Source: Microbulbifer pacificus
Lineage (GTDB): Bacteria; Pseudomonadota; Gammaproteobacteria; Pseudomonadales; Cellvibrionaceae
DNA length: 64,000 nucleotides
Assembly (NCBI RefSeq): GCF_033723955.1
Contig: NZ_CP137555.1
Location: forward strand, 4,084,001 to 4,148,000
Direction of reading: 5' to 3'
This document shows positions 10,689 through 53,702 of the stretch, in pieces (the first letter of the stretch is position 1; every line of letters begins with the position of its first letter). Position numbers and translations under genes: made by a program. The notes under the pieces were generated by a model. The model saw nothing but the letters and a program-made list of their open reading frames with translations. It made no database searches and was not told the DNA's origin.

Positions 10689-10764
10689 ATCCGCACAATA
10701 CCCCCTGTCAAAAATCGAGCGCATCCGCGTAAATTTATTTACTTGTCGTTATATGGAGTGATTT

Positions 10765-36538: not shown

Positions 36539-36589
36539 AAATAGCGGTTGACGCTGAAAAAATGGCCATTTAAGCTTCTGCAACCTATA

Positions 36590-36601
36590 AATTGTCGACA
36601 A
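36590..36601. promoter_or_regulatory. Candidate GntR operator O2
   Basis: ATTGTCGACAAT is a perfect 12-base palindrome. The core TGTCGACA recurs at 36614-36621 (in GATGTCGACAAAT), giving two sites 24 bases apart directly upstream of the regulator gene and suggesting autoregulation of the operon. Confidence 0.6.
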
Positions 36602-36639
36602 TCCAGAAAGGATGTCGACAAATCATCACGGTGGGGCAG

Positions 36640-37365: not shown

Positions 37366-37386
37366 ATCGAGAAACAGGGGCAATCC

Positions 37387-38265: not shown

Positions 38266-38293
38266 AAGATTTAGAAGTATTTGTTCCACCCAC

Positions 38294-38374
38294 CGTCATC
38301 CCGGCGAATGCCGGGATCCAGTCCGGAGGCAATCAAAACCTCCGCACTGGATGCCGGATCAGGTCCGGCATGAC
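38294..38374. repeat. REP-like double-hairpin intergenic repeat, copy 2
   Basis: It is organised like 35536-35620: outer GTCAT/ATGAC ends, one arm CCCGGCGAATGCCGGG (38299-38314) and the other GCCGGATCAGGTCCGGC (38353-38369). The arms can pair with each other through GGATCCAGT/ACTGGAT. It fills the prpB-prpC gap inside the operon, so it is transcribed and may affect mRNA stability. Confidence 0.78.
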
Positions 38375-38408
38375 GAAGTAAAAACTTAAATCGAAAGGGG
38401 AATTAGAG

Positions 38409-39533
38409 ATGGCAGAGAAAAAAGTTGGCGGAGCAGGCCTGCGCGGCCAGGTAGCTGGTAAAACCGCACTTTCCACCGTAGGCGTATCCGGCTCCGGCCT
38501 CACTTACTGCGGCTACGACGTCAAAGACCTGGCAGAAAACTGCGAGTTCGAAGAAGTTGCGTACCTGATTTTCAACGGCGAACTGCCCACCACCGCCCAG
38601 CTGGCGGACTACAAAGGCATCCTGAAAACCATGCGCGGCCTGCCGCTGGCGCTGCGCGAAGTGCTCGAGCGCATCCCCGCCGACGCACACCCGATGGATG
38701 TCATGCGCACCGGCTGCTCCATGCTGGGCAACCTGGAAGGCGAAGAGTCCTTCGCCCAGCAACAGGATCGCGCCAACCGCCTGCTGGCCGCATTCCCGTC
38801 CATCATCTGTTACTGGTACCGCTTCACCCACGACGGCGTGCGCATCGAAACCGAAACCGATGACGATTCCATCGGCGGCCACTTCCTGCACATGCTGCGC
38901 GACGAGAAGCCGAACGACCTGCACGCACAGGTAATGAATGTGTCCCTGATCCTGTACGCAGAGCACGAGTTCAACGCCTCCACCTTCACCGCGCGCGTAT
39001 GTGCCTCCACCCTGTCTGACCTGTTCAGCTGCATCACCGGCGCCATCGGCTCCCTGCGCGGCCCGCTGCACGGCGGCGCCAACGAAGCGGCGATGGAACT
39101 CATCGAACGTTTCTCTTCCGCCGACGAAGCGGAAAAAGAACTGCTGGGCATGCTCGAGCGCAAAGAAAAAATCATGGGCTTCGGCCACGCGGTATACACC
39201 GAATCCGACCCGCGCAACGCCATCATCAAGCAGTGGTCTGAAAAACTGGCCGCCGACGTGGGCGACACCGTGCTGTACCCAGTTTCCGTACGCTGCGAAG
39301 AAGTCATGTGGCGCGAGAAGAAGCTGTTCTGTAACGCCGACTTCTTCCACGCTTCCGCGTATCACTTCATGGGCATCCCCACCAAACTGTTTACGCCGAT
39401 CTTCGTAATGTCCCGCGTAACCGGCTGGGCCGCCCACGTGTTTGAACAGCGCGCAGACAACCGCATCATCCGCCCGAGCGCGGAATATATTGGCCCCGAA
39501 CTGCGCAAAGTGACCCCCATTTCCGAACGTTAA
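38409..39533 (+). CDS. prpC: 2-methylcitrate synthase
   Basis: It condenses propionyl-CoA with oxaloacetate to 2-methylcitrate. The 374-residue protein is a citrate synthase family member. The catalytic residues are seen in GPLHGGANEAAME (active-site His), KIMGFGHAVYTESDPR (second His) and the C-terminal SRVTGWAAHVFEQ. The N-terminus KKVGGAGLRGQVAGKTALSTVG is typical of the methylcitrate enzyme rather than GltA. GAAAGGGG precedes the start. Confidence 0.95.
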   Translation: MAEKKVGGAGLRGQVAGKTALSTVGVSGSGLTYCGYDVKDLAENCEFEEVAYLIFNGELPTTAQLADYKGILKTMRGLPLALREVLERIPADAHPMDVMRTGCSMLGNLEGEESFAQQQDRANRLLAAFPSIICYWYRFTHDGVRIETETDDDSIGGHFLHMLRDEKPNDLHAQVMNVSLILYAEHEFNASTFTARVCASTLSDLFSCITGAIGSLRGPLHGGANEAAMELIERFSSADEAEKELLGMLERKEKIMGFGHAVYTESDPRNAIIKQWSEKLAADVGDTVLYPVSVRCEEVMWREKKLFCNADFFHASAYHFMGIPTKLFTPIFVMSRVTGWAAHVFEQRADNRIIRPSAEYIGPELRKVTPISER

Positions 39534-39572
39534 TACGATCGGAACTACGAAACACGATGCGAAGGCGCTGAT

Positions 39573-39668
39573 GCCGGGGTCCCCTTTGCAGGACTGTCTG
39601 CGAGAGGGATCTCGCGGACAAGCCCCCATGGATGGGTTCACGGCGTGTCCTGCAAAGGGGACCCCGGC
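39573..39668. repeat. Three-way-junction palindromic element between prpC and acnD
   Basis: Perfect 22-bp outer inverted repeats (39573-39594 and 39647-39668) enclose two inner hairpins: TGTCTGCGAGA/TCTCGCGGACA (39595-39605 and 39610-39620) and CCCAT/ATGGG (39625-39636). The whole 96-base element can fold as a cloverleaf-like three-way junction in DNA or in the operon mRNA. The segment after the second hairpin (TTCACGGCGT) resembles a dispersed motif I recall from other marine gammaproteobacteria. Confidence 0.8.
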
Positions 39669-39710
39669 AGCAGCACCGCCACTCAACGATCCGACTGCGT
39701 GACCTGAGAA

Positions 39711-42308
39711 ATGAACACCGAATACCGCAAAAAACTCCCCGGCACCGATCTCGATTATTTCGACACGCGCGAAGCAGTCGAAAAAATCCAGCCGGGTAGC
39801 TATGAAAAACTGCCGTACACCTCGCGCATCCTCGCCGAAAACCTGGTGCGCCGCTGTGAGCCGGAAAAACTCACCGAATCCCTCAAGCAGATCATCGAAC
39901 GCAAGCGCGACCTGGACTTCCCCTGGTTCCCCGCACGCGTCGTCTGCCACGATATTCTCGGCCAGACCGCGCTGGTGGATCTCGCCGGCCTGCGCGACGC
40001 CATCGCAGACCAGGGCGGTGATCCCGCCAAAGTAAACCCGGTCGTGCCCACCCAGCTGATCGTCGACCACTCCCTGGCCGTCGAACACCCCGGTTTTGAA
40101 AAAAACGCGTTTGAAAAAAACCGCGAAGTGGAAGAGCGCCGCAACGAAGACCGCTTCCACTTCATCAACTGGACCAAAACCGCGTTTGAAAACGTCGACG
40201 TAATCCCGCCCGGCAACGGCATCATGCACCAGATCAACCTGGAGAAAATGTCTCCGGTGGTGCAGGTGAAAAACGGTGTGGCCTTCCCGGATACCTGCGT
40301 CGGCACCGACAGCCACACCCCGATGGTGGATGCGCTCGGCGTAATTTCCGTGGGCGTGGGCGGCCTTGAAGCCGAAAGCGTTATGCTCGGCCGCGCCTCC
40401 TACATGCGCTTGCCCGACATCGTCGGCGTCGAGCTGACCGGCAAACTGCAGCCCGGCATCACCGGTACCGACATGGTGCTGGCGTTGACCGAATTCCTGC
40501 GCCGCGAGCGCGTGGTGGGTGCGTATCTCGAATTCTACGGCGAAGGCGCCTCCAGCCTGAGCCTGGGAGACCGCGCCACCATCGCCAACATGACGCCCGA
40601 ATACGGCGCCACCGCCGGCATGTTCGCCATCGACGAGCAGACCATCGACTACCTGAAGCTCACCGGCCGCGACGACGCGCAGGTAGCCTTGGTAGAAAAA
40701 TTCGCGAAAGAAACCGGCCTGTGGGCGGACTCTTTGAAAGACGCCGAATACGAGCGCGTGCTCAAGTTCGACCTGTCTTCCGTTACCCGCAACCTGGCCG
40801 GCCCGTCCAACCCGCACGCACTGCTGCCGGTGTCCGAACTGGCGAACCGCGGCATCGCCAAAGAGTGGAAAGAAGAAGAGGGCCTGATGCCCGACGGTGC
40901 GGTGATCATTGCCGCGATCACCAGCTGCACCAACACCAGCAACCCGCGCAACATGATTGCCGCGGGCCTGATCGCGCGCAACGCCAACAAGCTCGGCCTG
41001 ACCCGCAAGCCGTGGGTGAAAACCTCCCTGGCTCCGGGTTCCAAAACCGTAAAAATGTACCTGGAAGAAGCCGACCTGCTGCCGGAACTGCAGCAACTGG
41101 GCTTCGACGTGGTCGCGTTTGCCTGCACCACCTGTAACGGCATGAGTGGCGCACTGGACCCGGTCATCCAGAAAGAAGTGATCGACCGCGACCTGTACGC
41201 CACCGCCGTACTGTCCGGCAACCGCAACTTCGACGGCCGTATCCACCCCTACGCCAAGCAGGCGTTCCTGGCTTCGCCGCCCTTGGTCGTTGCGTACTCC
41301 ATCGCCGGTACCATCCGCTTCGATATCGAGAAGGACACCCTGGGTTACGACAAAGACGGCAACCCGGTCACCCTGAAAGATATCTGGCCGAGCGACGAAG
41401 AGATCGACGCGATCGTCAAACAGAGCGTCAAGCCCGAGCAGTTCCGCGAGGTCTACATCCCGATGTTCGATTTGGCCAAGGCCGAATCTGAGAAGGGCGA
41501 CCCGCTGTACAACTGGCGCCCACAGAGCACCTACATCCGCCGCCCGCCGTACTGGGAAGGCGCGCTGGCCGGTGAGCGTGCGCTGAAGGGCATGCGCCCG
41601 CTGGCGGTGCTGGGTGACAACATCACCACCGACCACCTGTCGCCGTCCAACGCGATCCTGGCCAGCAGTGCCGCCGGTGAATACCTGGCGAAAATGGGCC
41701 TGCCGGAAGAGGACTTCAACTCCTACGCCACTCACCGCGGCGATCACCTCACCGCCCAGCGCGCCACCTTCGCCAACCCGAAGCTGTTAAACGAAATGGT
41801 GCGCAACGAAAACGGTGAAGTGAAGCAGGGCTCGCTGGCCCGCGTCGAGCCGGAAGGCCAGGTCACCCGCATGTGGGAAGCCATCGAAACCTACATGGAC
41901 CGCAAACAGCCGCTGATCATTATCGCAGGCGCCGACTACGGCCAGGGTTCCTCGCGCGACTGGGCCGCCAAGGGCGTGCGCCTCGCCGGTGTGGAAGCGA
42001 TCGTGGCGGAAGGCTTCGAGCGTATTCACCGCACCAACCTGATCGGCATGGGCGTGCTGCCGCTGGAGTTCCTGCCGGGCACCACCCGCACGACCCTCGG
42101 CATCGACGGCACCGAAACCTATGACGTGGTCGGCGAGCGCACCCCGGGCGCAACCCTGACCCTGCTGATCCACCGCAAGGATGGTGAAACCGTAGAAGTG
42201 CCGGTGAAATGCCGCCTGGATACCGCCGAAGAAGTTTCCATCTACGAGGCCGGCGGTGTACTGCAGCGCTTCGCCAAGGACTTCCTCGAAGCGGAGGCAA
42301 CAGCCTGA
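39711..42308 (+). CDS. acnD: Fe-S 2-methylcitrate dehydratase AcnD
   Basis: An aconitase-family enzyme that dehydrates 2-methylcitrate to a 2-methylaconitate isomer which PrpF then converts for hydration. It is 865 residues long. The 4Fe-4S ligands are in AAITSCTNTSNPRN and FACTTCNGMSG. Substrate-binding segments include CVGTDSHTPMVDALGV and the C-terminal GADYGQGSSRDWAAKG. Its length and pairing with prpF distinguish it from AcnA. It begins 178 bases after prpC, with the structured repeat in the gap. Confidence 0.95.
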   Translation: MNTEYRKKLPGTDLDYFDTREAVEKIQPGSYEKLPYTSRILAENLVRRCEPEKLTESLKQIIERKRDLDFPWFPARVVCHDILGQTALVDLAGLRDAIADQGGDPAKVNPVVPTQLIVDHSLAVEHPGFEKNAFEKNREVEERRNEDRFHFINWTKTAFENVDVIPPGNGIMHQINLEKMSPVVQVKNGVAFPDTCVGTDSHTPMVDALGVISVGVGGLEAESVMLGRASYMRLPDIVGVELTGKLQPGITGTDMVLALTEFLRRERVVGAYLEFYGEGASSLSLGDRATIANMTPEYGATAGMFAIDEQTIDYLKLTGRDDAQVALVEKFAKETGLWADSLKDAEYERVLKFDLSSVTRNLAGPSNPHALLPVSELANRGIAKEWKEEEGLMPDGAVIIAAITSCTNTSNPRNMIAAGLIARNANKLGLTRKPWVKTSLAPGSKTVKMYLEEADLLPELQQLGFDVVAFACTTCNGMSGALDPVIQKEVIDRDLYATAVLSGNRNFDGRIHPYAKQAFLASPPLVVAYSIAGTIRFDIEKDTLGYDKDGNPVTLKDIWPSDEEIDAIVKQSVKPEQFREVYIPMFDLAKAESEKGDPLYNWRPQSTYIRRPPYWEGALAGERALKGMRPLAVLGDNITTDHLSPSNAILASSAAGEYLAKMGLPEEDFNSYATHRGDHLTAQRATFANPKLLNEMVRNENGEVKQGSLARVEPEGQVTRMWEAIETYMDRKQPLIIIAGADYGQGSSRDWAAKGVRLAGVEAIVAEGFERIHRTNLIGMGVLPLEFLPGTTRTTLGIDGTETYDVVGERTPGATLTLLIHRKDGETVEVPVKCRLDTAEEVSIYEAGGVLQRFAKDFLEAEATA

Positions 42309-42310
42309 TC

Positions 42311-43489
42311 ATGACTTTTGCACCACAAATCAAAGTGCCCGCCACCTACATGCGTGGCGGCACCAGCAAGGGTGTGTTCTTCCGTCTGCAGGACCTCCCG
42401 GAATCCGCACAGGTTCCGGGCGCCGCGCGCGACAACTTCCTGCTGCGGGTGATCGGCAGCCCCGATCCCTACGGCAAGCAGACCGACGGCATGGGCGGAG
42501 CCACCTCCAGCACCAGCAAAACCGTCATCCTGTCGAAGAGCGAGCAGCCAGAGCACGACGTGGATTACCTGTTCGGCCAGGTCTCCATCGACAAGCCGTT
42601 CGTGGACTGGTCCGGCAACTGCGGCAACCTCACCGCCGCCGTCGGTGCCTTCGCCATCAACAGCGGTTTTGTGGATGCGGCACGCGTTCCAGAGAACGGC
42701 ATCTGCACCGTGCGCATCTGGCAGGCCAACATCAAGAAAACCATCATCGCCCACGTACCCATCACCAATGGGGAAGTGCAGGAGACCGGTGATTTCGAGC
42801 TGGACGGCGTCACCTTCCCGGCGGCGGAAGTGCAGATCGAATTCATGGACCCGGCGGATGGGGAAGGGGCTATGTTCCCCACCGGCAACCTGGTGGACGA
42901 TTTGGAGGTGCCCGGCGTCGGCACCCTGAAAGCCACCATGATCAACGCCGGCATCCCGACCATTTTCGTCAACGCCGCGGATATCGGTTACACCGGCACC
43001 GAACTGCAGGAAGCCATCAACGGTGACGACAAGGCGCTGGCCATGTTCGAAACCATCCGCGCCCATGGCGCGGTGCAAATGGGCCTGATCGCAACGGTGG
43101 AAGAGGCAGCCGCTCGCCAGCATACCCCGAAGGTCGCGTTCGTCGCGGCACCCAAGGGCTATGTGGCTTCCAGTGGCAAGCAAGTGGACGCAGGTGAAAT
43201 CGACCTGCTGGTGCGGGCGCTCTCCATGGGCAAACTGCACCACGCCATGATGGGCACCGCTGCGGTGGCCATCGGCACCGCCGCCGCCATTCCCGGCACC
43301 CTGGTCAATCTGGCTGCGGGGGGAGGGGAGCGCAGCGTGGTGAACTTTGGCCATCCATCCGGCACCTTGCGTGTTGGTGCGGAAGCGGAAATTGCCAACG
43401 GTGAGTGGACCGCCACCAAGGCCATCATGAGCCGCAGTGCGCGGATTCTGATGGAAGGGTGGGTGCGGGTGCCCGGCGATTGCTGCTAG
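42311..43489 (+). CDS. prpF: 2-methylaconitate cis-trans isomerase PrpF
   Basis: It isomerises the AcnD product to cis-2-methylaconitate. The 392-residue protein of the diaminopimelate epimerase-like fold starts with PATYMRGGTSKGVFF, the PrpF hallmark, followed by GMGGATSSTSKTVIL and WSGNCGNLTAAVGAFA (the conserved Cys-Gly-Asn). It starts two bases after the acnD stop. The C-terminus has GMGTAAVA-type (MMGTAAVAIGTAAAIPGT) and FGHPSGTLRVGA segments. It is the last gene before a strong terminator; prpD is not adjacent. Confidence 0.95.
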   Translation: MTFAPQIKVPATYMRGGTSKGVFFRLQDLPESAQVPGAARDNFLLRVIGSPDPYGKQTDGMGGATSSTSKTVILSKSEQPEHDVDYLFGQVSIDKPFVDWSGNCGNLTAAVGAFAINSGFVDAARVPENGICTVRIWQANIKKTIIAHVPITNGEVQETGDFELDGVTFPAAEVQIEFMDPADGEGAMFPTGNLVDDLEVPGVGTLKATMINAGIPTIFVNAADIGYTGTELQEAINGDDKALAMFETIRAHGAVQMGLIATVEEAAARQHTPKVAFVAAPKGYVASSGKQVDAGEIDLLVRALSMGKLHHAMMGTAAVAIGTAAAIPGTLVNLAAGGGERSVVNFGHPSGTLRVGAEAEIANGEWTATKAIMSRSARILMEGWVRVPGDCC

Positions 43490-43542
43490 TCTGCCTAGTG
43501 GCAGAAGCCGCTAATAGCTGTCTAAGCTGACTTTGAAGGTCG

Positions 43543-43577
43543 AAAAAGCGAGCCTCAATTGAGGCTCGCTTTTTTTG
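43543..43577 (+). terminator. Terminator of the prp operon
   Basis: AAAAAGCGAGCCTCAA (43543-43558) and its exact complement (43559-43574) form a stem with an AATT loop, and the 3' arm runs into T7. It marks the right edge of the core-like region. Confidence 0.92.
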
Positions 43578-43860
43578 TGTTTGAGCAGCTTATTAATGGA
43601 TCGAGGGAATCCGAAGTTCGATCAATATATTTATAGAAATGATGGGTAACAATCTAAGTCATTGACTTTAAAGGTTATTTAAATACTATCGAACGCCCAA
43701 TATGGAAAATGAAATGCATATTATAAGTTGGGCTGGAGAAAGTTATACCAAATTGCCGGTACAGGTCGATGTAATGGTACCCATGGAGATTCTTTGTGAG
43801 TTTTGCTGGAAAGATTTTCTCTTTGAGCAAAAAAGGGGCTAGCCCGTTATTTAGTTAATT
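43578..43860. other. AT-rich gene-free junction at accessory island start
   Basis: About 280 bases with no convincing gene. Base composition changes here from GC-rich to clearly AT-rich and stays so until about 48.9 kb. I saw no integrase, tRNA or obvious attachment repeat at the junction. Confidence 0.5.
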
Positions 43861-44589
43861 TTGGACGTAGCATTGAAACAACAAGAAATACAAGCGTTAA
43901 AGGGGCAAGAAATTCTTGCTAGGCCAGCTAATCAATTGCTGAATGACTTTGGGGCGGGAAGAGCTTCGCCCGGATCGGGTAGTGCCGCCGCCCTTCTGGG
44001 GCTTCTGGCATCAAAAATGATAATCACAGTTTGTGATATTAGCCTCAGAAAGAGTGAATGCTCAAAATTCCATAAAGAATTTTCTTTTGTCTTAAGTAGA
44101 GTTAAGGAAGAGATAGAGCCAAAGCTAAGAGATCTATTTGAAAAAGACGCAAGAGATTTTGAGACGGTAGTAAACCTTAGGGTTTTGCGTGATAAGTCAG
44201 TTGACGCCAATGAAAGATCCAAGTTCGCAAGAGAGTCATTGGATCTTTTGCAGGTGGCCACAGATTATACCTTTGAGGTTGCGGAATCGTCATTATCTTT
44301 AATGGAGTATGGGGTGACGATGTTTGAGCATGGCTGGCACGCAATACGTGGAGATTCCGGAGTGGCGATTAGCGCTGCTATGTCCGGTGTGATGTCATCG
44401 ATTTTTATCATCCATCTAAACTTGAAAACCTTGCGGCGAAGAAATTATTCCAAGGAAAATTTGAATAGAATTCGTACACTTCAGTCCAGGCTAGAGGAGT
44501 TACAGACGAAGGCGTTTTCTTGTGTGACATACATCAGCTCGGAGTCACTTGAATCGATTCAGTCAATGCAATTGGAGTTGAGTGAATAA
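43861..44589 (+). CDS. Cyclodeaminase/cyclohydrolase-like (FTCD_C fold) protein
   Basis: A helical protein of about 242 residues. The N-terminal RPANQLLNDFGAGRASPGSGSAAALLGLLASKM matches the FTCD_C pattern (PGGGSAAALAGAL), and the later RGDSGVAISAAMSGVMSSIFIIHLN matches its SDAGVAAALAEAA...NV segment. Family enzymes deaminate or hydrolyse formimino- or methenyl-tetrahydrofolate, but here the first Gly triplet reads PGSGS and the flanks diverge, so activity is uncertain. The start is unclear: TTG codons at 43861 and 43873 are possible, and neither has a good ribosome site. It is AT-rich, unlike the core. It precedes the DUF262-HEPN pair by 90 bases on the same strand. Confidence 0.6.
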   Translation: MDVALKQQEIQALKGQEILARPANQLLNDFGAGRASPGSGSAAALLGLLASKMIITVCDISLRKSECSKFHKEFSFVLSRVKEEIEPKLRDLFEKDARDFETVVNLRVLRDKSVDANERSKFARESLDLLQVATDYTFEVAESSLSLMEYGVTMFEHGWHAIRGDSGVAISAAMSGVMSSIFIIHLNLKTLRRRNYSKENLNRIRTLQSRLEELQTKAFSCVTYISSESLESIQSMQLELSE

Positions 44590-44679
44590 TAAGTCGATAA
44601 ATATCGCCACTTTATTCTGGACTGCATAAGATGTGATTTATCTTTAATTTTTCTTTCAGTTTAAAAATGAGGGTTTTAA

Positions 44680-45756
44680 ATGAGTCTCGAAGATGAAATA
44701 AGCGAGCGTATTGGGGAAGTTAGGACAGATACGTTTGATATGAGTTTTGGTGAAATTGTTAATCTTCATTATAACAATGAGCTGGTGATTCAGCCTGAAT
44801 ACCAGAGGTTATTCCGTTGGAGTAATCAACAAAAATCGCATTTGATTGAGTCCATATTGTTGGAATTGCCTGTCCCGCAAATATTCGTAATCGAAAATCA
44901 GGACGGTGTTTTAGAATTAATAGATGGGCTTCAGCGAACGAGTACTGTGCTTCAGTTTATGGAACCAGATTCCATAAATATGGATCCGCTATGTTTGGAG
45001 GGGTGTACGTTAATTCCTGCTTTAAACGGAAAAACATTTCAAGATCTCCCGCTAAGTTTGAGGCTTTCCCTAAAACGATCTCCGATTAGGACGGTCGTCA
45101 TAAAAAAACAAAGCAAAGGTTTCCTTAGGTATGAGATGTTTAAGCGGTTAAATACTGGGGGTTCAAATCTGGAACCCCAGGAAATAAGGAATTGTTCTGC
45201 GAGAATGATTGGTGAGAACGGTGTTGAATTTTATAATTTTTTGGTTGGCTTGACTGCGTTTGAATCTTTTGCTCGATGTGCTGATTATCTTCCTCAGGCG
45301 GAAAAAGATAAGAAAGGGGCTGAAGAGCTTGTTCTCAGATTTTTTGCAACCAAGAACGCTCCAGATTTATTTAAAGGAAGTGTTCGAGATTGGCTAGACA
45401 ATTTCATGGAGGCTATTCTTCTGCAAGATATTGAGTTTGACTTGGAGAAAGAGGCATCAATTTTTAAAGATACATTTAGTGTTATTTACGACAAGCTGGG
45501 TGATAGCGCATTTCTTCGGTATAGGGGAAATACGCCAGTAGGTTCGTTACCTCCTGCATATTTTGAGGCAATATCGGTAGGTACGTATAATTCTTTGGAG
45601 AAGGTGAGAGTTAAGGATAGGACCGTACTTCGTTCTGCAATTACGGATCTTGTTCAGTCTGTGGATTTTAGGGCGGTTACTGGGCCGGGAGCTAACTCTA
45701 GAGAAAAACTGCAAACCAGGATAAACCTTGTTTCTAGCAAGCTTGAAGAGTTATGA
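44680..45756 (+). CDS. DUF262 domain protein (GmrS/ParB-like sensor subunit)
   Basis: A 358-residue cytoplasmic protein whose N-terminal half is a DUF262 ParB/Srx-like nucleotide-binding domain: IQPEYQRLFRWSNQQKSHLIESILLELPVPQIFV (recognised as a region, residues 38-70) and ELIDGLQRTSTV (79-90), a variant of the family DGQQR motif. FKRLNTGGSNLEPQEIRNC is a further family block. DUF262 proteins act in type IV restriction (GmrS, BrxU) and other anti-phage systems, usually with a DUF1524 HNH nuclease. That nuclease is missing here, and the stop overlaps a HEPN gene by four bases (ATGA) instead. GAGGG precedes the ATG. Confidence 0.85.
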   Translation: MSLEDEISERIGEVRTDTFDMSFGEIVNLHYNNELVIQPEYQRLFRWSNQQKSHLIESILLELPVPQIFVIENQDGVLELIDGLQRTSTVLQFMEPDSINMDPLCLEGCTLIPALNGKTFQDLPLSLRLSLKRSPIRTVVIKKQSKGFLRYEMFKRLNTGGSNLEPQEIRNCSARMIGENGVEFYNFLVGLTAFESFARCADYLPQAEKDKKGAEELVLRFFATKNAPDLFKGSVRDWLDNFMEAILLQDIEFDLEKEASIFKDTFSVIYDKLGDSAFLRYRGNTPVGSLPPAYFEAISVGTYNSLEKVRVKDRTVLRSAITDLVQSVDFRAVTGPGANSREKLQTRINLVSSKLEEL

Positions 45757-46427
45757 ACGATTACGAATCGCAAATAGAAAATGATCTTCTTTGGAGGGAA
45801 AAGGAGCTTGCCTCTTTAAAGAGGATGGCGATTACAAGTCGAAATAATCAAATTGCTTATCGGGCTATTCTGAGGGCTTCTTGGGCTACTTTATATGCTC
45901 ATTTTGAGGGTTTTACGAAGTTTGCTTGGGAGCTTCTTCTTGACAAGGTTGAATCTGAGGCGGTGCCCGCCCGCGAACTAAGCGAAAAATTCAGGGCGCT
46001 TGCTCTTGAAAAGCCATTTAAGATTTTAAGGGGTGACGCCAGCTCTGAAAACCTATTGTCTTTTTTTGATTCAGGGATGCAAGAATTTTTACGGAGCCCT
46101 GTCATTTTTGATCCAGAATGCAGATTATCCACTGATTCAAATTTGTGGCCGAACGTGTTCGAGAGAGAGTGTGCCAAAATTGGTGTTGCGTCGAGAGAGT
46201 TGGATAATGGAAGGGCTAGGATTAAAGCTTTGGTGGCGCGAAGAAATGAGATAGCTCACGGTAAAAATATGACGGTCAGCTCTGTCGATGAATACTCTGA
46301 GTATGAGCAGGCGGCGCTTCTCGTCATGCACGATCTGGCTTTGCAGGTTTTAGATATTATCGAAAATCGCGGCTACCGCGTAACTAATTTCCCCGCCCAA
46401 ACTATTACTGCCGATTCCTCTGAATAA
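45753..46427 (+). CDS. HEPN ribonuclease-like protein (MAE_28990/MAE_18760 type)
   Basis: A 224-residue helical protein with a HEPN catalytic motif R-x4-H: Arg164, Asn165 and His169 in VARRNEIAHGK. N-terminal helices with RASWATLYAHFEGFTKFAWELLLDK match the MAE_28990/MAE_18760 HEPN group as I recall it. HEPN proteins with this motif are metal-independent RNases used as toxins or abortive-infection effectors. Start and stop overlap (ATGA) couple it to the DUF262 gene, implying a sensor-effector pair. AT-rich codon use suggests transfer. Confidence 0.82.
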   Translation: MNDYESQIENDLLWREKELASLKRMAITSRNNQIAYRAILRASWATLYAHFEGFTKFAWELLLDKVESEAVPARELSEKFRALALEKPFKILRGDASSENLLSFFDSGMQEFLRSPVIFDPECRLSTDSNLWPNVFERECAKIGVASRELDNGRARIKALVARRNEIAHGKNMTVSSVDEYSEYEQAALLVMHDLALQVLDIIENRGYRVTNFPAQTITADSSE

Positions 46428-46483
46428 TGGGCAGTATCAGATCTTTGTGGAGTTGCAATGCTAGGGAAGCCCTTATCCAATAA

Positions 46484-46499
46484 TTGGGGTCAGATCAAC
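46484..46499 (+). repeat. GGGGTCAGATCAAC motif, copy 1
   Basis: TTGGGGTCAGATCAAC. Variants recur at 47051, 47971 and 54653; two of them stand upstream of RAYT start segments. Probably a relic of RAYT-mobilised sequence. Confidence 0.6.
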
Positions 46500-46622
46500 T
46501 TTATGGCACTGATTTTACTGATAGTGTGTGATGCCTGAGTTTTGAACGGATCCTAAACTACATTTTGGGAAATTGGCTGGGCGGCGTTCCTAGGATTTGT
46601 ATTTTCAAGAGTTTGGAAATGT

Positions 46623-47036
46623 ATGAAGTTTCTAGTTTCAAATATTGGTGACCGGAACCATCAGGATATTTTTTCTGGTATTGCCTCTGGTGCGTTTTTT
46701 GACCTATCACCAAGGCAGCATGGCTGGAATGATTACTACCAAATTGGTCTAAACGACGTTGTATATGTGATATCAAAAGAGCGTCGAGTAGAGCATGGTT
46801 TTCGAGTTCTTGGGATCGTCGACGGCGTGGATCTTGAGGTCGATGATGTATGGGGTGAAAAGGTTAGATCCGTTACCGGCGGAAATCTTCGAGTGCTTTT
46901 TGGGCAGCGTGTGGACTATATCGGGATCGATTACTCAGATTTTGTCAGGAACAATGGCATTGTCAGCCCAAAATTGAATCCTGTGACCGGCAAGATGTAC
47001 CCCGGATTTAATTGCGTGAAGTTTCCCGAAGTTTGA
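46623..47036 (+). CDS. Small protein, unrecognised; possible EVE/PUA-like fold
   Basis: A 137-residue protein I cannot assign with confidence. It is beta-rich with no membrane segment: MKFLVSNIGDRNHQDIFSG, then WNDYYQIGLNDVVYVISKERRVEHGFRVLGIVDGVDLE. The order (start strand, aromatic Trp-Asn, GLNDVVYVIS, then a VLGIVDG strand) recalls EVE/PUA-like modified-base readers, which occur in defence loci, but the match is only impressionistic. It lies 195 bases after the HEPN gene on the same strand in AT-rich DNA. Confidence 0.6.
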   Translation: MKFLVSNIGDRNHQDIFSGIASGAFFDLSPRQHGWNDYYQIGLNDVVYVISKERRVEHGFRVLGIVDGVDLEVDDVWGEKVRSVTGGNLRVLFGQRVDYIGIDYSDFVRNNGIVSPKLNPVTGKMYPGFNCVKFPEV

Positions 47037-47050
47037 AATTAAAATAAATA

Positions 47051-47248
47051 TTGGGGTCAGAGTAAAGTATTCTGTTTGAATTATTATGCTTCATAGGTTT
47101 TTGTTGTAGCACCCACTGAATTTTCCGTCCATTAGTCTATTGCCATAACAAAGAGCGAGGGAGAAGCTTGATGGCCAGATTACCGCGCCTTGGTCCTGCG
47201 GGGATTCCGCAGCATGTCATACCGCGTGGCAACAACCGGCAGGTTCGA
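47051..47248 (+). repeat. RAYT 5' segment, copy A
   Basis: It comprises the TTGGGGTCAGAGTAAAG motif, a leader with CCGTCCATTAGTCTATTGCCAT, and the first 26 codons of a REP-associated transposase from ATG 47171 (MARLPRLGPAGIPQHVIPRGNNRQV). Similarity to copy B at 47971-48139 stops abruptly after GGCAGGTT, where the unknown gene begins. Confidence 0.82.
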
Positions 47249-47281
47249 ATTCAGAGTGTTTTTCAAAAAAGGATTGTAAAG

Positions 47282-47857
47282 TTGAGTTATGTAGAAAGGT
47301 TTATAGATGCGATTGACTACACTCGCAGTTTGGGCTTAAAAATCGAAAAAAACCCAATACCGCTTAGTGATAAGATTAAACTTTCAACTATGCAGAATAT
47401 TTTTCAGCTATGTGGGGATGCGTTATATCACTATGGCTATCAAACTTCAGAAAATTTAGCAGGTCAATGTACACCTGTTCATTTAATGCTGCAGTCGCAT
47501 CTTAAAAGTGACATGAATATCGATAGCTTTATCACGGTAGGTGATCGATATTGGGCTGATTACATTTACTGTGAAATGTCTAAAAATTCTATAGAAAGTG
47601 AGCTTAAAAACCCGAGTATCGGTGGAGGTATTAAAGCTCATGTTTGGCTGACACTTACTGATGGTACGATTTTAGACTGTACCGCAGAAGCACACGCAGA
47701 TCTACTTTTCAAACGTGGTCTACATCCTGCCCATAAGTGCATAATGCTCGTTGATCCAAACCAAGAAGAAAACGTCAAGATTGGGTATCATAGACCTTAC
47801 CTGATAGGAACTGGTTTTTTAGAAAAAACAGGCATATATCAGGTTGTTCATCCATAA
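47282..47857 (+). CDS. Unknown protein captured within a RAYT gene
   Basis: A 191-residue protein of unrecognised family. The frame is open from 47168 through the RAYT fragment, which would give a 229-residue chimera. The native start is more likely TTG 47282 (LSYVERFIDAIDYTRSLG), as AAAGGA lies eight bases upstream. Notable segments are CGDALYHYGYQTSENLAGQCTPVHLMLQSHL and GGGIKAHVWLTLTDGTILDCTAEAHADLL. The conserved-looking Cys and His pattern (QCTPVH..., KAHVWLT...DCTAEAH) would suit a transglutaminase-like Cys-His-Asp enzyme, which is speculation. RAYT segments lie on both sides. Confidence 0.68.
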   Translation: MSYVERFIDAIDYTRSLGLKIEKNPIPLSDKIKLSTMQNIFQLCGDALYHYGYQTSENLAGQCTPVHLMLQSHLKSDMNIDSFITVGDRYWADYIYCEMSKNSIESELKNPSIGGGIKAHVWLTLTDGTILDCTAEAHADLLFKRGLHPAHKCIMLVDPNQEENVKIGYHRPYLIGTGFLEKTGIYQVVHP

Positions 47858-47970
47858 CAAGGCGGGGCAGACAGGCTCAGGGCCTTCGGCCCTCCGTGGG
47901 GCAGCGTTCGGTGCCTAGGCTCAACTTAATTAATAAAATGCGTATATGGAAGAATGTAGAAAAATAATAA

Positions 47971-48139
47971 ATGGGGTTAGATCAACATTATGAAACCCTT
48001 TTGCTCCCGCTGAGTTTTCCATCCGTTAGTCTATGGCCATTACCAAAAGGGAAGGGAAGGCTTGATGGCCAGATTGCCGCGCCTCGGACCTGCAGGGATT
48101 CCGCAGCATGTCATACAGTGGGGCAACAACCGGCAGGTT
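47971..48139 (+). repeat. RAYT 5' segment, copy B
   Basis: A direct, imperfect repeat of copy A: ATGGGGTTAGATCAAC motif, CCATCCGTTAGTCTATGGCCAT leader and RAYT start, then continuous into the decayed RAYT body. The two copies flank the gene at 47282-47857. Confidence 0.82.
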
Positions 48140-48299
48140 TGATTCGGTTCAGAACAGGACATGGTCGTATACGCCGGTTGGCTAAAACAGTATGCAAAGG
48201 AGTTCGATATTCAGGTACATGCCTGGGTGTTGATGACCAATCACGTGCACCCGCTGGTAACTCCGAACGTATGAGGCTGGGTCCATGCATAGGAAACCA
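48065..48299 (+). pseudogene. REP-associated tyrosine transposase (RAYT), decayed
   Basis: Translation from ATG 48065 reads MARLPRLGPAGIPQHVI then GNNRQV, an in-frame TGA at 48140, and then EQDMVVYAGWLKQYAKEFD and WVLMTNHVHPLVTP, which holds the HUH (His-Val-His) metal site of Y1 transposases. A second stop follows at 48272 and the catalytic tyrosine region is absent. RAYTs are single-copy HUH enzymes that mobilise REP palindromes. The next gene's start codon lies inside this relic. Confidence 0.85.
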
Positions 48300-48965
48300 C
48301 TAGACACGGAAATTGATCACCACACGGCTAAATTCATCGTGGGATTTATCGCCTTGTCACTTGCGATTTTTACCGACTTGCTGACGCCTGGGGTCAGCAT
48401 TAGTTCGATTAGCCTGTCATATCATTTGACGGATAATGCCCGCAATGTATTCGTTGGATCTCTTTGCGTAATATCGGCTTTTCTCTGGTCGTATAATGGC
48501 TACTCTTTGTTTCAAGCTGTCTTGAGTAAAGTCGCAGCAGTCGCGGTCGCAGCCGTGGCATTTTTTCCATGCGATTGTTTTACCGGTAGGGGTGTTGAGG
48601 AGGTAGCCAGAGAAGCCACGATGATTGGGATTGTCCATACGGCCTCGGCAATTTCAATGTTCATTATCCTCGCAATTTTTTGTTGGCTGTTTTACCTGAG
48701 AGCGAAAGAAAAAGATTCCAAAGAGGCGAAGGTAAGGGGGCTAATTTATAGGATATGCGCAGTCGCTATGGTTGGCGCCATGGCCATACAGCTGCTCGAT
48801 ATTCTGGACTGGGTAGATTTTAGCGGTATTACTCACCGGTTGACTTACTATGTCGAAGCGACAAGTTTGTTTGCATTTGGTGTTGCATGGCTGACAGCGA
48901 GCCGAATGTTGCCATTTGTTACCAATGAAGACGAGCGTATAAGAATCGAGCTTTCTGGACAGTAG
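48285..48965 (+). CDS. Multipass membrane protein, DUF998-like
   Basis: A 226-residue protein with about six hydrophobic helices (near residues 15-32, 52-72, 76-95, 115-138, 155-175 and 188-208). The pairing ISLSYHLTDNARNVFVGSLC then FFPCDC is the pattern of DUF998-like membrane proteins, function unknown. The ATG at 48285 overlaps the decayed RAYT, and GAGG ten bases upstream is a weak site, so the true start could be internal. Codon use is intermediate between the island and the core. Confidence 0.72.
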   Translation: MHRKPLDTEIDHHTAKFIVGFIALSLAIFTDLLTPGVSISSISLSYHLTDNARNVFVGSLCVISAFLWSYNGYSLFQAVLSKVAAVAVAAVAFFPCDCFTGRGVEEVAREATMIGIVHTASAISMFIILAIFCWLFYLRAKEKDSKEAKVRGLIYRICAVAMVGAMAIQLLDILDWVDFSGITHRLTYYVEATSLFAFGVAWLTASRMLPFVTNEDERIRIELSGQ

Positions 48966-49089
48966 CCGATTTTATGGGGTTGTGTGCATTTCTCGGTATT
49001 GGTTGTTCTCTGTTCTTTTGCGAGTAAATTCAGGGGCGATTCAGTTGCGCCGGGTTAAAAAGCAGGTGTGAATCCAAGGAGGACGCACC

Positions 49090-50073
49090 ATGCGCCAGGT
49101 CCCACACCGATTACTCGCCGCTCTTACCATCACTTTGACGCTCGGTGGCTGTGTCACCTACCCAGCAGCTCCGCCGGTGATCGGCGGGGGCACCTATGTC
49201 CGCAAGGCTACTCCGGTTTACTCCTATACAGTGATCACCGATCCCGGCTATCGCTACTACGACGCTTCGCTCGGCGTTTACGTATTCTACGACCGCAGCG
49301 ACGTTTTCTTTCGGCAGGGGCATTACTATCGTTGGTATCAGGACCATTGGATCAGTGCCAGTCACTGGCATGGCCCCTGGTATCCGGCCCCGAATTTTTA
49401 TGTCTCGGCAAACTTCAATGATCACTGGCATACGCGCTTGCGCCGCCATGGCCAGCACTATGCCGGAGGACACGACTACACACCGCCGCGCCGGCACGAT
49501 CGTGACGACGGTTACAACCGGCGGGACCGGCATGAAGGCAACGGGCAACGACATGATCGTCGTGAGGAGGGGCGGGATCGCCCAGGGCAGGGCCAGGATC
49601 GTGGCCGAGGTGGCGAACAGGGATTTGCTGGCATAGCCGAGCCAAAGCCGCGGGCGCCTCAGGTGGATAACCGAGGCGGGGATCGCCGTAATGAACGCCA
49701 GAACCCACGTCCGAATCCAGGCCGGGACGTGCGCGCAGTCAAACTTGCCGACAAGCCAACCGGCATTCGCGACCCGCGAGTTGTTCCTGCGTTAGAGCGT
49801 CCGGCAACCGATCGCCGCACGGTGCACGACAGGCGCAAGCCACAAAGCCAGCGCGGCCAGCCCCAACCCCAGCGCAATGCGCCGAATGATCAGCGCAATG
49901 CTGCCGCGAAGCCAGCTTCGTCCCAGGAGGGCAAGGAACCTAAGAGTGAGCAACCAAAGAAAAAGACGCAGAAAAAGAAGTCCCAAAAGACAACGGATAA
50001 GCGCGATCAGGTAAACCGGGTGCGTGAGCCGCTTACCCACCGGTCCAATGAACCACGCCGTCAGATCGATTGA
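49090..50073 (+). CDS. Lipoprotein with long basic low-complexity tail
   Basis: A 327-residue predicted lipoprotein: signal MRQVPHRLLAALTITLTLGGC with the lipobox cysteine at 21. Residues 35-120 form a Tyr/Trp/His-rich domain (VYSYTVITDPGYRYYDASLGVYVFYDRSDVFF region, then GHYYRWYQDHW). The remaining 200 residues are Arg/Asp/Gln/Pro/Lys low complexity, ending in KKKTQKKKSQK. The tail is unusually basic and could bind anionic polymers such as DNA, RNA or polysaccharide at the outer membrane. AGGAGG precedes the ATG. Function unknown. Confidence 0.8.
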   Translation: MRQVPHRLLAALTITLTLGGCVTYPAAPPVIGGGTYVRKATPVYSYTVITDPGYRYYDASLGVYVFYDRSDVFFRQGHYYRWYQDHWISASHWHGPWYPAPNFYVSANFNDHWHTRLRRHGQHYAGGHDYTPPRRHDRDDGYNRRDRHEGNGQRHDRREEGRDRPGQGQDRGRGGEQGFAGIAEPKPRAPQVDNRGGDRRNERQNPRPNPGRDVRAVKLADKPTGIRDPRVVPALERPATDRRTVHDRRKPQSQRGQPQPQRNAPNDQRNAAAKPASSQEGKEPKSEQPKKKTQKKKSQKTTDKRDQVNRVREPLTHRSNEPRRQID

Positions 50074-50094
50074 TCCCATTTATTGAAAAAACAC

Positions 50095-50200
50095 CCGCTG
50101 GACTGGAAACCAATGTGTTCAGTGGCGTTGTGGTTGACCACCAGGCCGCGGTGGATACGGCTAAATCCAGCCGGGGCCGGGCGTTCGAGTTCACGGATTG
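50095..50200 (-). pseudogene. LytTR DNA-binding domain remnant
   Basis: On the minus strand this stretch reads RELERPAPAGFSRIHRGLVVN followed by HNATEHI, like the ...F-x-RIHRSYLVN core of LytTR response-regulator domains. No start or complete domain is present, so it is at best a short relic. Confidence 0.4.
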
Positions 50201-50218
50201 ATTGGCTCGGTAGGAGTC

Positions 50219-51070
50219 CTACACCAGGTGGTTGAACGTGCTGCTGCTGCGGCTCTGTTTTCCGTGTTGGGCAACGCGGACGCCAATGGCGGCTTCGATC
50301 AGCGCGGTCACATCGTCTTCGATGCCGTGCGCGTCACGCTCGGTAGGCTGATTGGCGTAGAAATGCCATGGCGAGTGATCGCTCTGAGCGAAGTTGCCTA
50401 CCCCGGAGAGGGTGGTCTTGTAGCACTCCCGCATCCACTCTTCGACCTCAAGCTTGATGGTCGGACGCTTGAACCAGGTCGGACGGGCGGTGCCGCAGAA
50501 GGTCCGGAAGTAATTGCGCGCGTTCTGGGAGGCCTGATTGGACACGTTCAGCGGCACGCTGAGCCATTTGGAGATCATCTGAGGCGTCGCGGACACGTCG
50601 GTGCCCTGACTGACCTGCTGGAACATCTGGATCCGATCCTGCACTGAGCCCATGCCGTGGGCATTGGTGTGGGCGTTGATCTTGGTGCTCGAGTTCTGGT
50701 CGGGGAACTCGATTTCGCCGCCCGCGAGACCCTGCGAGATACGGAAAAACTGCTCGCTGTGGCGGGTCTCGTGGTAGATCGTCGCGCACAGCTCCACGAA
50801 GTCCTCGTACATCAGGCTGGCGCTACTGGTGTAGTTGGCGTTCAGCTTCAAGCGCCAGCTGCCCCAGTTGAAGGAGCCGCACAGGCCCGGGCCCAGATGA
50901 TTGTGGGATATGGTCGGCGTGGGCATGAAGGTCGTCATGTCACGAATCGCCTGCTCGATCGACTGCCGCTGACGGGTTGTCCGGCTTCCGCCGGCGCGGT
51001 TCCAGTCCTTCCAGACATTGCGCATGCGGTTCGCGAAGGTTTGCTTCGTCGCTTGGAGATGGAGAGTCAT
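50219..51070 (-). CDS. Orphan protein with HExxH metallopeptidase-like motif
   Basis: A 283-residue protein of unknown family. The ATG at 51070 follows GGGAGG. FVELCATIYHETRHSEQFFR places HETRH at residues 100-104, a classic HExxH zinc-binding helix after a hydrophobic approach, as in many metallopeptidases. A third ligand could be in the NAHTNAHGMG region (about 130-140). N-terminal residues are basic and there is no signal peptide. The rest (NARNYFRTFCGTARPTWFKRP; YKTTLSGVGNFAQ) gives no further clue. Proteins of this sort occur near extracellular contractile or toxin loci, but nothing here supports that. Confidence 0.72.
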   Translation of the reverse strand: MTLHLQATKQTFANRMRNVWKDWNRAGGSRTTRQRQSIEQAIRDMTTFMPTPTISHNHLGPGLCGSFNWGSWRLKLNANYTSSASLMYEDFVELCATIYHETRHSEQFFRISQGLAGGEIEFPDQNSSTKINAHTNAHGMGSVQDRIQMFQQVSQGTDVSATPQMISKWLSVPLNVSNQASQNARNYFRTFCGTARPTWFKRPTIKLEVEEWMRECYKTTLSGVGNFAQSDHSPWHFYANQPTERDAHGIEDDVTALIEAAIGVRVAQHGKQSRSSSTFNHLV

Positions 51071-51251
51071 CGTCTTGCCTCCCTGGCTGTTATTAGATTG
51101 CCGATGTTTTCTGACTCGGCGGCGCGAACACTCCTGATTCGGCTGCGAGCATTTTTGCTTGCCTTGTCTGATCATTCAAGGATGGCTTGTAAACTCCGCG
51201 ACGAATGGGGCCGTCAGAGCTCTCTAGTCTAACGCTGGCGATTGCTGATAT

Positions 51252-51267
51252 CTGTGTATTTATCCAG
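51252..51267. promoter_or_regulatory. LexA box upstream of polB
   Basis: CTGTGTATTTATCCAG fits CTG-N10-CAG and lies 48 bases before the polB start. E. coli polB is a known SOS gene, which supports the assignment. Confidence 0.8.
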
Positions 51268-51314
51268 TACAATGGCGCCAGCCTCCAATCCACGCATCAA
51301 TCAAGAACAGTCTC

Positions 51315-53666
51315 TTGCCTCAAGGATTTCTCCTCACTCGCCACAGCTTTGATCAGCGCGGTAGCACCTGCATCCACTATTGGCTGGCCACGCCCGAGGG
51401 CCCGGTCAAGCTGGTCATTGAAGGTGAGCGCGCGGTCTTTATGGTGAAGGTGGCGGACCGCACCCAGGTGACCGAGGCGCTGGCCGGCGTGCCCTGCGAT
51501 TGGCAGCAGCTGGGCTTCCAGACCTTTGGTCGCGAGGAAGCGGCCATGCTGTATTTCCCCACCATAGACGCTCATCGCCGTGCCCAGACTCTGTTGCAAA
51601 CTCGCGGCATCGAGGTACTGGAAGCGGATTTTCGTCTCCACGACCGTTACCTGATGGAGCGCTTTGCCCGGGGTGGCCTCTACTTTGAAGGTGTCGCTCA
51701 GGCCAGAGACGGCTATACGGAATATCGGCAGGTGCGCCTCAGGGGCGCCGAGGTGCAGCCGGATTTCAAGGTGGTCTCCCTGGATGTGGAGTGCTCCGGC
51801 CAGGGAGAGCTGTATTCCATCGGTCTCTACGGTCATAGCGTGGAAGAGGTGCTGATGGTGGGCAAACCGGAGGCCGCCGACACCACCATCCACTGGGTGG
51901 ATGACGAGCGGGCGCTGCTCGAGGCCCTGGAGGCCAGAATCAAAGCCCTGGACCCGGACATCATCATCGGTTGGTCTGTGGTGGAGTTTGATTTTCGGCT
52001 GCTGCTGAAAAGGGCCGCTCGCCATGGACTGCACCTGAAGCTGGGGCGCGGCGGCACCGATGCCCGCTGGCGCGATGGCGGGGAGGGCAGCCAGGGTTTC
52101 GTAACGCTTCCGGGGCGGGTGGTGCTGGATGGCATCGACGGACTGAAGAGCGCCACCTACAACTTTGAAAGCTTCAGCCTGGAATTCGTGGCCCAGACGC
52201 TGCTGGGCAGGGGTAAGGACACCGAAGACGTGGACAACCGCCTGGCGGTGATTGAACATGATTTTCGCCATAACAAACCTAAGCTCGCCGCTTACAACCT
52301 GGAAGACTGCCGCCTGGTCTGGGATATTTTCCAGCACACCCGCCTGCTGGATTACCTGCGCCTGCGTGCCCAGCTCACTGGCCTCGAGCTCGACCGCAGC
52401 GGCGGCTCGGTGGCGGCGTTTACCAACCTCTACCTGCCCAAGCTACACCGCAGCGGCTATGTGGCGCCCAACCTGCCGGCCGATGGCGGCTTGGCCAGCC
52501 CGGGCGGCTATGTGATGGACTCCCGGCCGGGCCTGTACGACAACGTGTTGGTGCTGGATTTCAAGAGCCTTTATCCAAGCATTATCCGTACCTTCAAGAT
52601 CGATCCTATGGGGCTGATTGAAGGATTGGCTGAGGAGCTGGAGGAGGGCGATATCATTCCCGGTTTTCGCGGTGCGTGCTTTTCCCGTGATAAGCATTTC
52701 CTGCCGGACATCATTACCAATCTCTGGGCCCAGCGCGACATCGCCAAGCAGGAGCAGGATGCTGCCCGCTCCCAGGCCATCAAGATCATCATGAACTCCT
52801 TCTACGGGGTACTCGGAAGCGGGGGCTGCCGTTTTTACGACACGCGCCTGGCCAGCTCCATCACCCTGCGTGGTCACGAGATCATGCAGCAGACGGCGCG
52901 CTGGATTGAGGAGCTGGGTCACCAGGTCATCTATGGCGATACCGACTCCACCTTTGTGTGGCTGAGTGGCCGCCCCAGCCTTGAAGAGGCGGATGCGATC
53001 GGCAAGAGCCTGGCCGGCGAGATCAACACGCGCTGGCGGAACAAGCTCAAAGATGAGCTCGCGTTGGAGTGCGAACTGGAACTGGAATTCGAAACCCACT
53101 ACCAGCGCTTTTTGATGCCCACCATTCGCGGCTCGGAGGCCGGCTCCAAGAAACGCTATGCGGGCCTGGTAATAAAAGGGGGCGAGGAAAAGCTGATATT
53201 CAAGGGGCTGGAAACGGTGCGCAGCGACTGGACGCCACTGGCCAAGCAGTTCCAGACCCAGCTCTACGGGATGGTGTTTAAGGGTGTTGATCCGTCCGAC
53301 TATGTCCGCGAGACGGTGGAGAAAACCCGGGCAGGGGAGATGGACGAGCATCTGGTGTATCGCAAGCGGCTCCGGCGCAAGCTGGAGCAATACGTAAAAA
53401 ACGTGCCGCCCCAGGTGCGCGCGGCGCGACTGGCCGATGAACACCGTCGGCAGCAGGGGCTGGAACCCCGCTACCAGAACAAGGGCTGGATTCGCTACGT
53501 GATCACCCTCAATGGCCCGGAGCCAGTGGATCACCGTCAGTCACCGATGGATTACCAGCACTATATCGACCGGCAGCTCAAGCCGGTGGCTGATGCCATA
53601 TTGCCCTTCATCGATCTGGATTTTGACAGTCTGGTGGATGGCCAGCTGGGCCTGTTCGGGGTGTAG
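51315..53666 (+). CDS. polB: DNA polymerase II (family B), SOS-inducible
   Basis: A proofreading DNA polymerase used in replication restart and translesion synthesis. At 783 residues it equals the E. coli enzyme in length. The 3'-5' exonuclease motif I is VVSLDVECSG (about 152-161). The polymerase motif A DFKSLYPSII starts at Asp415, motif B includes KIIMNSFYGVLG, and motif C YGDTDST is at 540-546. The start is TTG at 51315 with only a weak ribosome site. A LexA box upstream gives SOS control. The M14 gene follows after 36 bases. Confidence 0.96.
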   Translation: MPQGFLLTRHSFDQRGSTCIHYWLATPEGPVKLVIEGERAVFMVKVADRTQVTEALAGVPCDWQQLGFQTFGREEAAMLYFPTIDAHRRAQTLLQTRGIEVLEADFRLHDRYLMERFARGGLYFEGVAQARDGYTEYRQVRLRGAEVQPDFKVVSLDVECSGQGELYSIGLYGHSVEEVLMVGKPEAADTTIHWVDDERALLEALEARIKALDPDIIIGWSVVEFDFRLLLKRAARHGLHLKLGRGGTDARWRDGGEGSQGFVTLPGRVVLDGIDGLKSATYNFESFSLEFVAQTLLGRGKDTEDVDNRLAVIEHDFRHNKPKLAAYNLEDCRLVWDIFQHTRLLDYLRLRAQLTGLELDRSGGSVAAFTNLYLPKLHRSGYVAPNLPADGGLASPGGYVMDSRPGLYDNVLVLDFKSLYPSIIRTFKIDPMGLIEGLAEELEEGDIIPGFRGACFSRDKHFLPDIITNLWAQRDIAKQEQDAARSQAIKIIMNSFYGVLGSGGCRFYDTRLASSITLRGHEIMQQTARWIEELGHQVIYGDTDSTFVWLSGRPSLEEADAIGKSLAGEINTRWRNKLKDELALECELELEFETHYQRFLMPTIRGSEAGSKKRYAGLVIKGGEEKLIFKGLETVRSDWTPLAKQFQTQLYGMVFKGVDPSDYVRETVEKTRAGEMDEHLVYRKRLRRKLEQYVKNVPPQVRAARLADEHRRQQGLEPRYQNKGWIRYVITLNGPEPVDHRQSPMDYQHYIDRQLKPVADAILPFIDLDFDSLVDGQLGLFGV

Positions 53667-53702
53667 AATGCCTCCCTCGCTCATCATTGGAGAACAAGCG
53701 AT

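Follow-up and report, generated by a model that had tools for sequence, protein, structure and literature searches.

A DUF262-HEPN gene pair and a neighbouring FTCD_C-family gene in a defence hotspot of Microbulbifer pacificus

Genes and composition of the locus

The locus under study lies in the genome of Microbulbifer pacificus (NCBI RefSeq assembly GCF_033723955.1), on a 64,000-nucleotide stretch of contig NZ_CP137555.1 (positions 4,084,001 to 4,148,000 of the forward strand) that is called the window below and whose own numbering is used throughout. Window positions 43861-46427 contain three open reading frames (ORFs), all on the + strand, which code for an FTCD_C-family protein, a DUF262 protein and a HEPN protein. 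They occupy a variable hotspot downstream of prpF, and this hotspot quite probably holds two independent modules, a sensor/ribonuclease (RNase) defence pair resembling the system PD-T4-2 and a separate FTCD_C gene. The features of the locus are as follows.

43490..48284, no strand: variable hotspot from prpF to the DUF998 gene (48285); contents differ among species of the genus
43542..43575, + strand: terminator-like hairpin 3' of prpF (15-pair stem, then a T run); left edge of the variable island
43861..44589, + strand: FTCD_C-family gene, 242 aa, TTG start with an alternative start at 43873 (ORF, Pfam, AlphaFold model)
43969..43998, + strand: codons of the FTCD_C glycine-rich loop PGSGSAAALL, which aligns with PGGGGAAAIS of FchA
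44680..45756, + strand: DUF262/GmrSD_N gene, 358 aa, putative sensor/regulator dependent on nucleoside triphosphate (NTP) (Pfam, PADLOC)
44923..44937, + strand: DGLQR motif, D82-R86 of the DUF262 protein (read from the sequence)
45753..46427, + strand: HEPN_MAE_28990 gene, 224 aa, putative RNase effector (Pfam; ATGA overlap with the DUF262 gene)
46242..46259, + strand: HEPN motif R164-N165-x3-H169 (read from the sequence)

The FTCD_C gene is separated from the DUF262 gene by a gap of 90 nt, and the DUF262 and HEPN genes overlap by the four bases ATGA. The database copy of the FTCD_C protein (P0001) begins four codons downstream of the TTG start. Guanine-cytosine (GC) content is 41% at 43580-46430, 43.5% at 46430-48284 and 56% at 48285-51300, with flanking values of 61% (36000-43489, the upstream operon) and 62% (51315-54626) and a window value of 57.5%. 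An earlier note on this DNA, made from its letters alone, had described a DUF262 protein with DGLQR, a HEPN protein with R164-N-x3-H169, their ATGA overlap, an FTCD_C-like gene 90 bases upstream on the same strand and AT-rich surroundings, and all of these are present in the ORFs, the Pfam matches (FTCD_C among them), the sequence and the GC values (41% vs 57.5%). No Rfam family at the gathering score and no tRNA were found in the window, and promoter-like sites were uninformative (6 observed vs 6.7 expected).

The DUF262-HEPN pair

All three proteins matched Pfam families with scores over the curated cut-offs, so these matches are not due to chance. The DUF262 protein carries GmrSD_N/DUF262 (E = 1.5e-23), which was its sole Pfam domain at E up to 1, with no DUF1524/HNH module found. 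Against PADLOC it matched NsnA (PDLC03877; 6.9e-61) and PD-T4-2_A (PDLC04027; 1.3e-36, over residues 24-350). The DGLQR motif was invariant in all 25 alignment rows and DG[LQ]QR was present in 119 of 120 homologues among the matches listed. The HEPN protein matched HEPN_MAE_28990 (PF18737; 8.2e-39) and HEPN_RiboL-PSP (a general HEPN family, PF18735; 1.2e-28). Residues R163, R164, N165, I167, A168 and H169 were invariant in an alignment of 30 rows and RRNxIAH was found in 120 of 120 homologues among the matches listed; free variation of the motif, which the earlier note had named as telling against its reading, was not seen.

The DUF262 and HEPN genes form a real, conserved two-gene operon. The earlier note had proposed looking for a HEPN gene adjoining DUF262 homologues, and the pair was found in 31 further loci, though not with every DUF262 relative. 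These loci lie on chromosomes within the genus and the wider class, on plasmids from three phyla, on phages and on viral contigs; they were seen with flanks of about 1 to 8 kb and include near-identical members (L080/L081, L068/L069). The HEPN R-x(4)-H motif is present in 31/31 and DGxQR in 30/31, the exception being a short ORF. When viral contigs were searched with the HEPN alignment, 14 loci were found, two of them cut inside the HEPN gene, and each of the remaining 12 has a DUF262 gene directly 5' of the HEPN gene, in the same orientation, at a spacing of -113 to +2 nt as measured by longest ORFs. The DUF262 search of viral contigs gave 15 loci, with a HEPN gene in all seven that had 47-58% identity. 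Within the genus a DUF262 match was obtained in 6 of 48 genomes, the window's own included, with six other hits in five genomes; three of these hits have a HEPN gene within about 1.5 kb. In the class, HEPN at 1e-10 was found in 3 of 369 genomes, again including the window's own, and the two others also carry DUF262. The HEPN search matched seven plasmid records and one phage record (three and one examined, respectively) and the DUF262 search matched 129 records (108 plasmid, 21 phage), of which seven were examined, picked for variety among the matches listed. The pair was found in all 11 records examined by annotation, custom profile or Pfam. Plasmid carriers were Corynebacterium, Roseomonas, Leptospira, E. 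coli, Klebsiella, Psychrobacter and Paraburkholderia, and the phage records were from Terrisporobacter, Moraxella and a P2-like Escherichia phage.

DNA methyltransferase genes adjoin or lie near the phage and plasmid pairs L099, L101, L103 and L105, and restriction-modification genes occur in L102. Methyltransferase neighbours are in line with the 2013 operon description of MAE_28990 HEPN proteins given below.

PD-T4-2 is reportedly a two-gene defence system of E. coli, described by Vassallo and colleagues in 2022. It combines DUF262 with a HEPN protein of PF18735 (PMC10952713), and its deletion in the native strain raises T4 plaquing, in a study where remote HEPN similarity was noted for 6 of 21 systems (PMC9519451). 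DUF262 itself is described as an NTPase in GmrSD, BrxU and SspE and as ParB/Srx-like (PMC10952713). Comparative work on HEPN proteins describes MAE_28990 HEPN operons with a ParB nuclease and a DNA methylase, RiboL-PSP HEPN proteins with ParB, and HEPN proteins in two-gene toxin-antitoxin modules (PMC3710099; Anantharaman et al., 2013). The pairing is therefore already known, as an operon type since 2013 and as an experimentally validated system in PD-T4-2. The earlier note had proposed that a separate RNase replaces the HNH module here; a HEPN partner is indeed present and an HNH module was not found, but the arrangement is not new.

The window DUF262 protein matches the component A model of PD-T4-2 and its HEPN partner belongs to PF18735, the family attributed to PD-T4-2. 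However, the component B model (PDLC04028) matches neither the window HEPN protein nor the genome, and the DUF262 protein has a stronger match to NsnA than to PD-T4-2_A. The window pair is of the DUF262-HEPN kind and by analogy would work like PD-T4-2, although by the component B model it is not PD-T4-2. Like the MAE_28990 operons, it places a HEPN gene beside a ParB-like gene, given the ParB/Srx-like description of DUF262, but the DNA methylase of those operons was absent among the eight window ORFs scanned. With GmrSD, BrxU and SspE the protein shares DUF262 with a DG-x-QR motif, and it differs from them in that no DUF1524/HNH domain was found in it. Menshen was also considered on account of the NsnA match. 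The HEPN gene takes the place of NsnB/NsnC; a scan of six window proteins with E values up to 1 gave no match to either, and the genome's NsnB matches are weak and lie at 2.19 and 3.90 Mb. Menshen membership was ruled out because neither NsnB nor NsnC adjoins the pair.

Several results weigh against a PD-T4-2-like defence pair. In PADLOC no model matched the window HEPN protein, PD-T4-2_B included, and the scan thus points to no complete system in the catalogue; a fold search of the PDB with the HEPN model returned nothing at E 0.001, and the DUF262 sequence matched no solved structure beyond chance level. Three of the six other DUF262 hits in the genus are without HEPN, the HEPN score of the genus pair L059 is borderline (4.5e-4), and no HEPN gene was seen in 8 of the 15 viral DUF262 loci, namely the distant ones at 25-38% identity. 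Five other pairs run against PADLOC behaved as the window pair did, with DUF262 matching NsnA and PD-T4-2_A and HEPN matching nothing at 0.01, so that no PADLOC 2.0.0 model matched any of the six HEPN halves scanned. The pair occurs in several phyla, plasmids and phages, yet its scanned HEPN halves are without a PADLOC match, which makes it a common, under-annotated defence candidate.

The pair is a real module of putative sensor and RNase that is probably defensive. We infer NTP binding, RNase activity and an anti-phage role from the families named above. The DUF262 protein, whose NTP-pocket motif is intact, would sense infection, probably via modified or foreign DNA or its own NTP state, and would restrain or recruit the HEPN protein of the overlapping gene. 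On activation, the HEPN protein, a putative RNase with R-x(4)-H, would cut RNA and stop phage production or kill the infected cell. If so, the pair offers a clean test of how a DUF262 sensor can drive RNA cleavage in place of an HNH nuclease. The tight two-gene spacing, the carriage on plasmids and prophage-like contigs, and the discussion of HEPN toxin-antitoxin modules in PMC3710099 would also suit a pair that serves mainly as a toxin-antitoxin or element-maintenance unit, with HEPN as toxin and DUF262 as its neutraliser. We consider this unlikely, as the DUF262 protein has the motif of the GmrSD/BrxU/SspE sensors, the site is a chromosomal defence hotspot and PD-T4-2 provides a precedent.

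The FTCD_C gene and its family

The earlier note had taken the FTCD_C-like protein as a possible third component of the system, and neighbourhood counts do not support this: the three genes are not co-conserved, an outcome that the note had named as refuting its reading. A scan of GTDB species genomes gave 54 FTCD_C relatives, 53 with a clear FTCD_C ORF. DUF262 or HEPN was present in none of these 53 loci (flanks up to 10 kb, shorter at contig ends), and FTCD_C was present in none of the 31 other DUF262-HEPN pairs. A three-gene cassette was rejected on these counts. Searches of viral contigs, plasmids and phages gave no FTCD_C. The gene occurs in one of the 48 genus genomes, namely the window's own, and in 40 relatives none of the 284 ORFs (100 aa or longer) on the 3' side of prpF was an FTCD_C gene.

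In a single three-gene system the FTCD_C protein would bind a folate-like metabolite or nucleotide and control the DUF262-HEPN effector. The shared strand, the 90-nt gap and the same low GC fit such a system, as does a 2419-nt metagenomic contig, which apparently joins an FTCD_C relative (P0002; 88% identity) to a DUF262 relative (P0122; 89% identity), a co-occurrence taken from both being listed on a contig of that length and one that speaks against two independent modules. This apparent linkage implies that the juxtaposition has some persistence. Set against the counts above, and against FTCD_C genes that adjoin unrelated systems or, in a few genomes, attC-like sites, the three-gene system is nevertheless very improbable. 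We judge the FTCD_C gene to be mobile and independent, a single gene that shares the site with the pair without encoding one of its subunits. It would be a mobile relative of folate cyclohydrolase/cyclodeaminase that stands outside the pair's mechanism.

Sites resembling attC were defined by TAAC[AC]A and CGTT[AG] ends. None was found in the window at 40-52 kb, and on this result an integron cassette at the window locus was rejected. Four of the 53 loci have such a site no more than 120 nt from FTCD_C, upstream in L003 and L008 and downstream in L009 and L016, and in L008 a pair of 84-nt repeats (9884-9967 and 10676-10759) flanks the gene. This suggests that FTCD_C is carried as an integron cassette in these four genomes. 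A stricter pattern retained L009 alone, and a looser pattern with a high background placed sites near 9 of 54 loci. Downstream sites occurred at 13 of 603 other ORFs of the loci compared to 2 of 53 FTCD_C genes; with no enrichment over this control, the suggestion concerns single loci and not a trend.

The window FTCD_C protein matched Pfam FTCD_C at 1.7e-26 (93.5 bits vs a cut-off of 24.5). Its AlphaFold model (pLDDT 84.9) matched FchA 7vg4 in Foldseek (3.9e-8; TM-score 0.82 by target length) as well as 1o5h and 1tt9, and by this model the protein has an FchA-like fold. The glycine-rich loop is likewise shared with FchA, and PGSGSA was present in 119 of 120 homologues among the matches listed. 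The protein differs from FchA in falling short of the curated cut-off for the FchA equivalog NF045657 (72.1 bits vs 275), and also in its scattered occurrence and in the defence neighbours and metallopeptidase fusions seen among relatives. A 53-row tree that includes the window protein but omits L025 groups this protein with two Bacteroidota (Tenacibaculum) sequences of 67% and 70% identity with a support of 84/89, outside the tree tool's starred class. This clustering suggests, from sequence comparison, that the gene moved between phyla.

Among the 53 tree proteins, 22 are longer than 420 aa and all of these have HExxH beyond residue 230. Pfam placed a C-terminal Peptidase_M78 (IrrE-like) domain in each of the five long proteins scanned (L030, L040, L042, L052, L054), and an M78-type fusion in the other 17 was judged by length and motif. 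The long proteins are those of L030-L035, L037, L039-L042 and L044-L054, with 17 from Bacteroidota, four of Burkholderiales type and one from Planctomycetota. No fixed partner was seen, as no neighbour family was common to more than 6 of the 54 loci, nor did the 22 fused loci have a common small ORF within 300 nt.

Large neighbours of FTCD_C (20 hand-picked proteins from 16 loci, with no control set) matched PADLOC at 1e-5 in 9 of the 16 loci, which is suggestive only. They included TIR-APAZ with short Argonaute (L014), Lamassu LmuB (L006), PDC-M65A/B (L005), PDC-S42 (L027), and restriction-modification genes of type II (L031) and type I (L045), with weaker matches in L018, L024 and L035. In the Aliiglaciecola loci L014 and L015, FTCD_C lies directly downstream of TIR-APAZ and short Argonaute (16 nt in L014), the neighbours in L015 being assigned by clustering homology to those scanned in L014. 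Other relatives adjoin housekeeping genes (ribonucleotide reductase, DnaA, RNase R).

A displaced metabolic methenyl-tetrahydrofolate cyclohydrolase with no defence role, compatible with any function of the pair, would account for the Pfam and FchA fold matches and for the housekeeping neighbours. The low equivalog score, the presence in one of 48 genus genomes, the cross-phylum mixing in the tree, the metallopeptidase fusions and the defence neighbours argue against it, and we regard this explanation as doubtful, if with an appreciable chance of being right. The one-carbon folate pool is perturbed by phages through thymidylate and hydroxymethyl-deoxycytidine monophosphate synthesis. The FTCD_C proteins could tentatively be an undescribed single-gene immune or stress family that spreads alone, binds a folate-type one-carbon metabolite and acts on its pool or, when fused to the metallopeptidase, gates an ImmA/IrrE-type protease, a proposal to which we give a rather low probability. 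Among the literature matches listed, no titles or abstract openings tied a cyclodeaminase-family protein to phage defence. Should the family prove defensive, it would link one-carbon metabolism to immunity; it is a more novel lead than the pair, may matter more and is worth follow-up.

The hotspot downstream of prpF

The interval from prpF to DUF998/polB is a defence hotspot that is variable across the genus. The 3' end of prpF was located in 47 of 48 genus genomes and 14-17 kb downstream of it were taken from 40 of the 46 other genomes. In 26 of these 40 a window gene serving as downstream anchor was located, roughly 2 to 13 kb past prpF, and in the remaining 14, the most diverged among them, no anchor gene was found within the fetched stretch. 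The cargo scan covered 80 proteins, each 230 aa or longer, out of 24 of these 26 anchored genomes, and 297 PADLOC families were matched at 1e-10. The 25 commonest of these families include NERD-UvrD (8.5e-164), LmuB (1.3e-131), GajB (2.1e-75), NsnA (3e-71), GajA (4e-37), Old (1.6e-29) and NsnB (8.2e-29), and Pfam matches include AAA_21, GmrSD_N (three members), SIR2_2, STALD and transposases. The defence reading of the earlier note is supported by Gabija-, Lamassu-, NERD-UvrD-, SIR2- and Menshen-like cargo at the same prpF spot in relatives, one of which (G011; L058/L136) has its own diverged DUF262-HEPN pair there.

Extra partial, diverged prpF 3' ends lie a few kb from prpF in G035 (L137), G023 (L135), G010 (L142) and G017 (L141), and a further copy in G015 was seen from the prpF 3'-end search only. 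The pattern would fit integrating elements that each carry a prpF end of their own. Within the window hotspot, the ORF at 47168-47857 had no Pfam match, and its first residues resemble short stretches of 24-49 residues, in at most three copies per genome, that recur at the prpF hotspot of relatives. By eye this start resembles a REP-type (Y1) transposase, and the ORF may be a truncated remnant.

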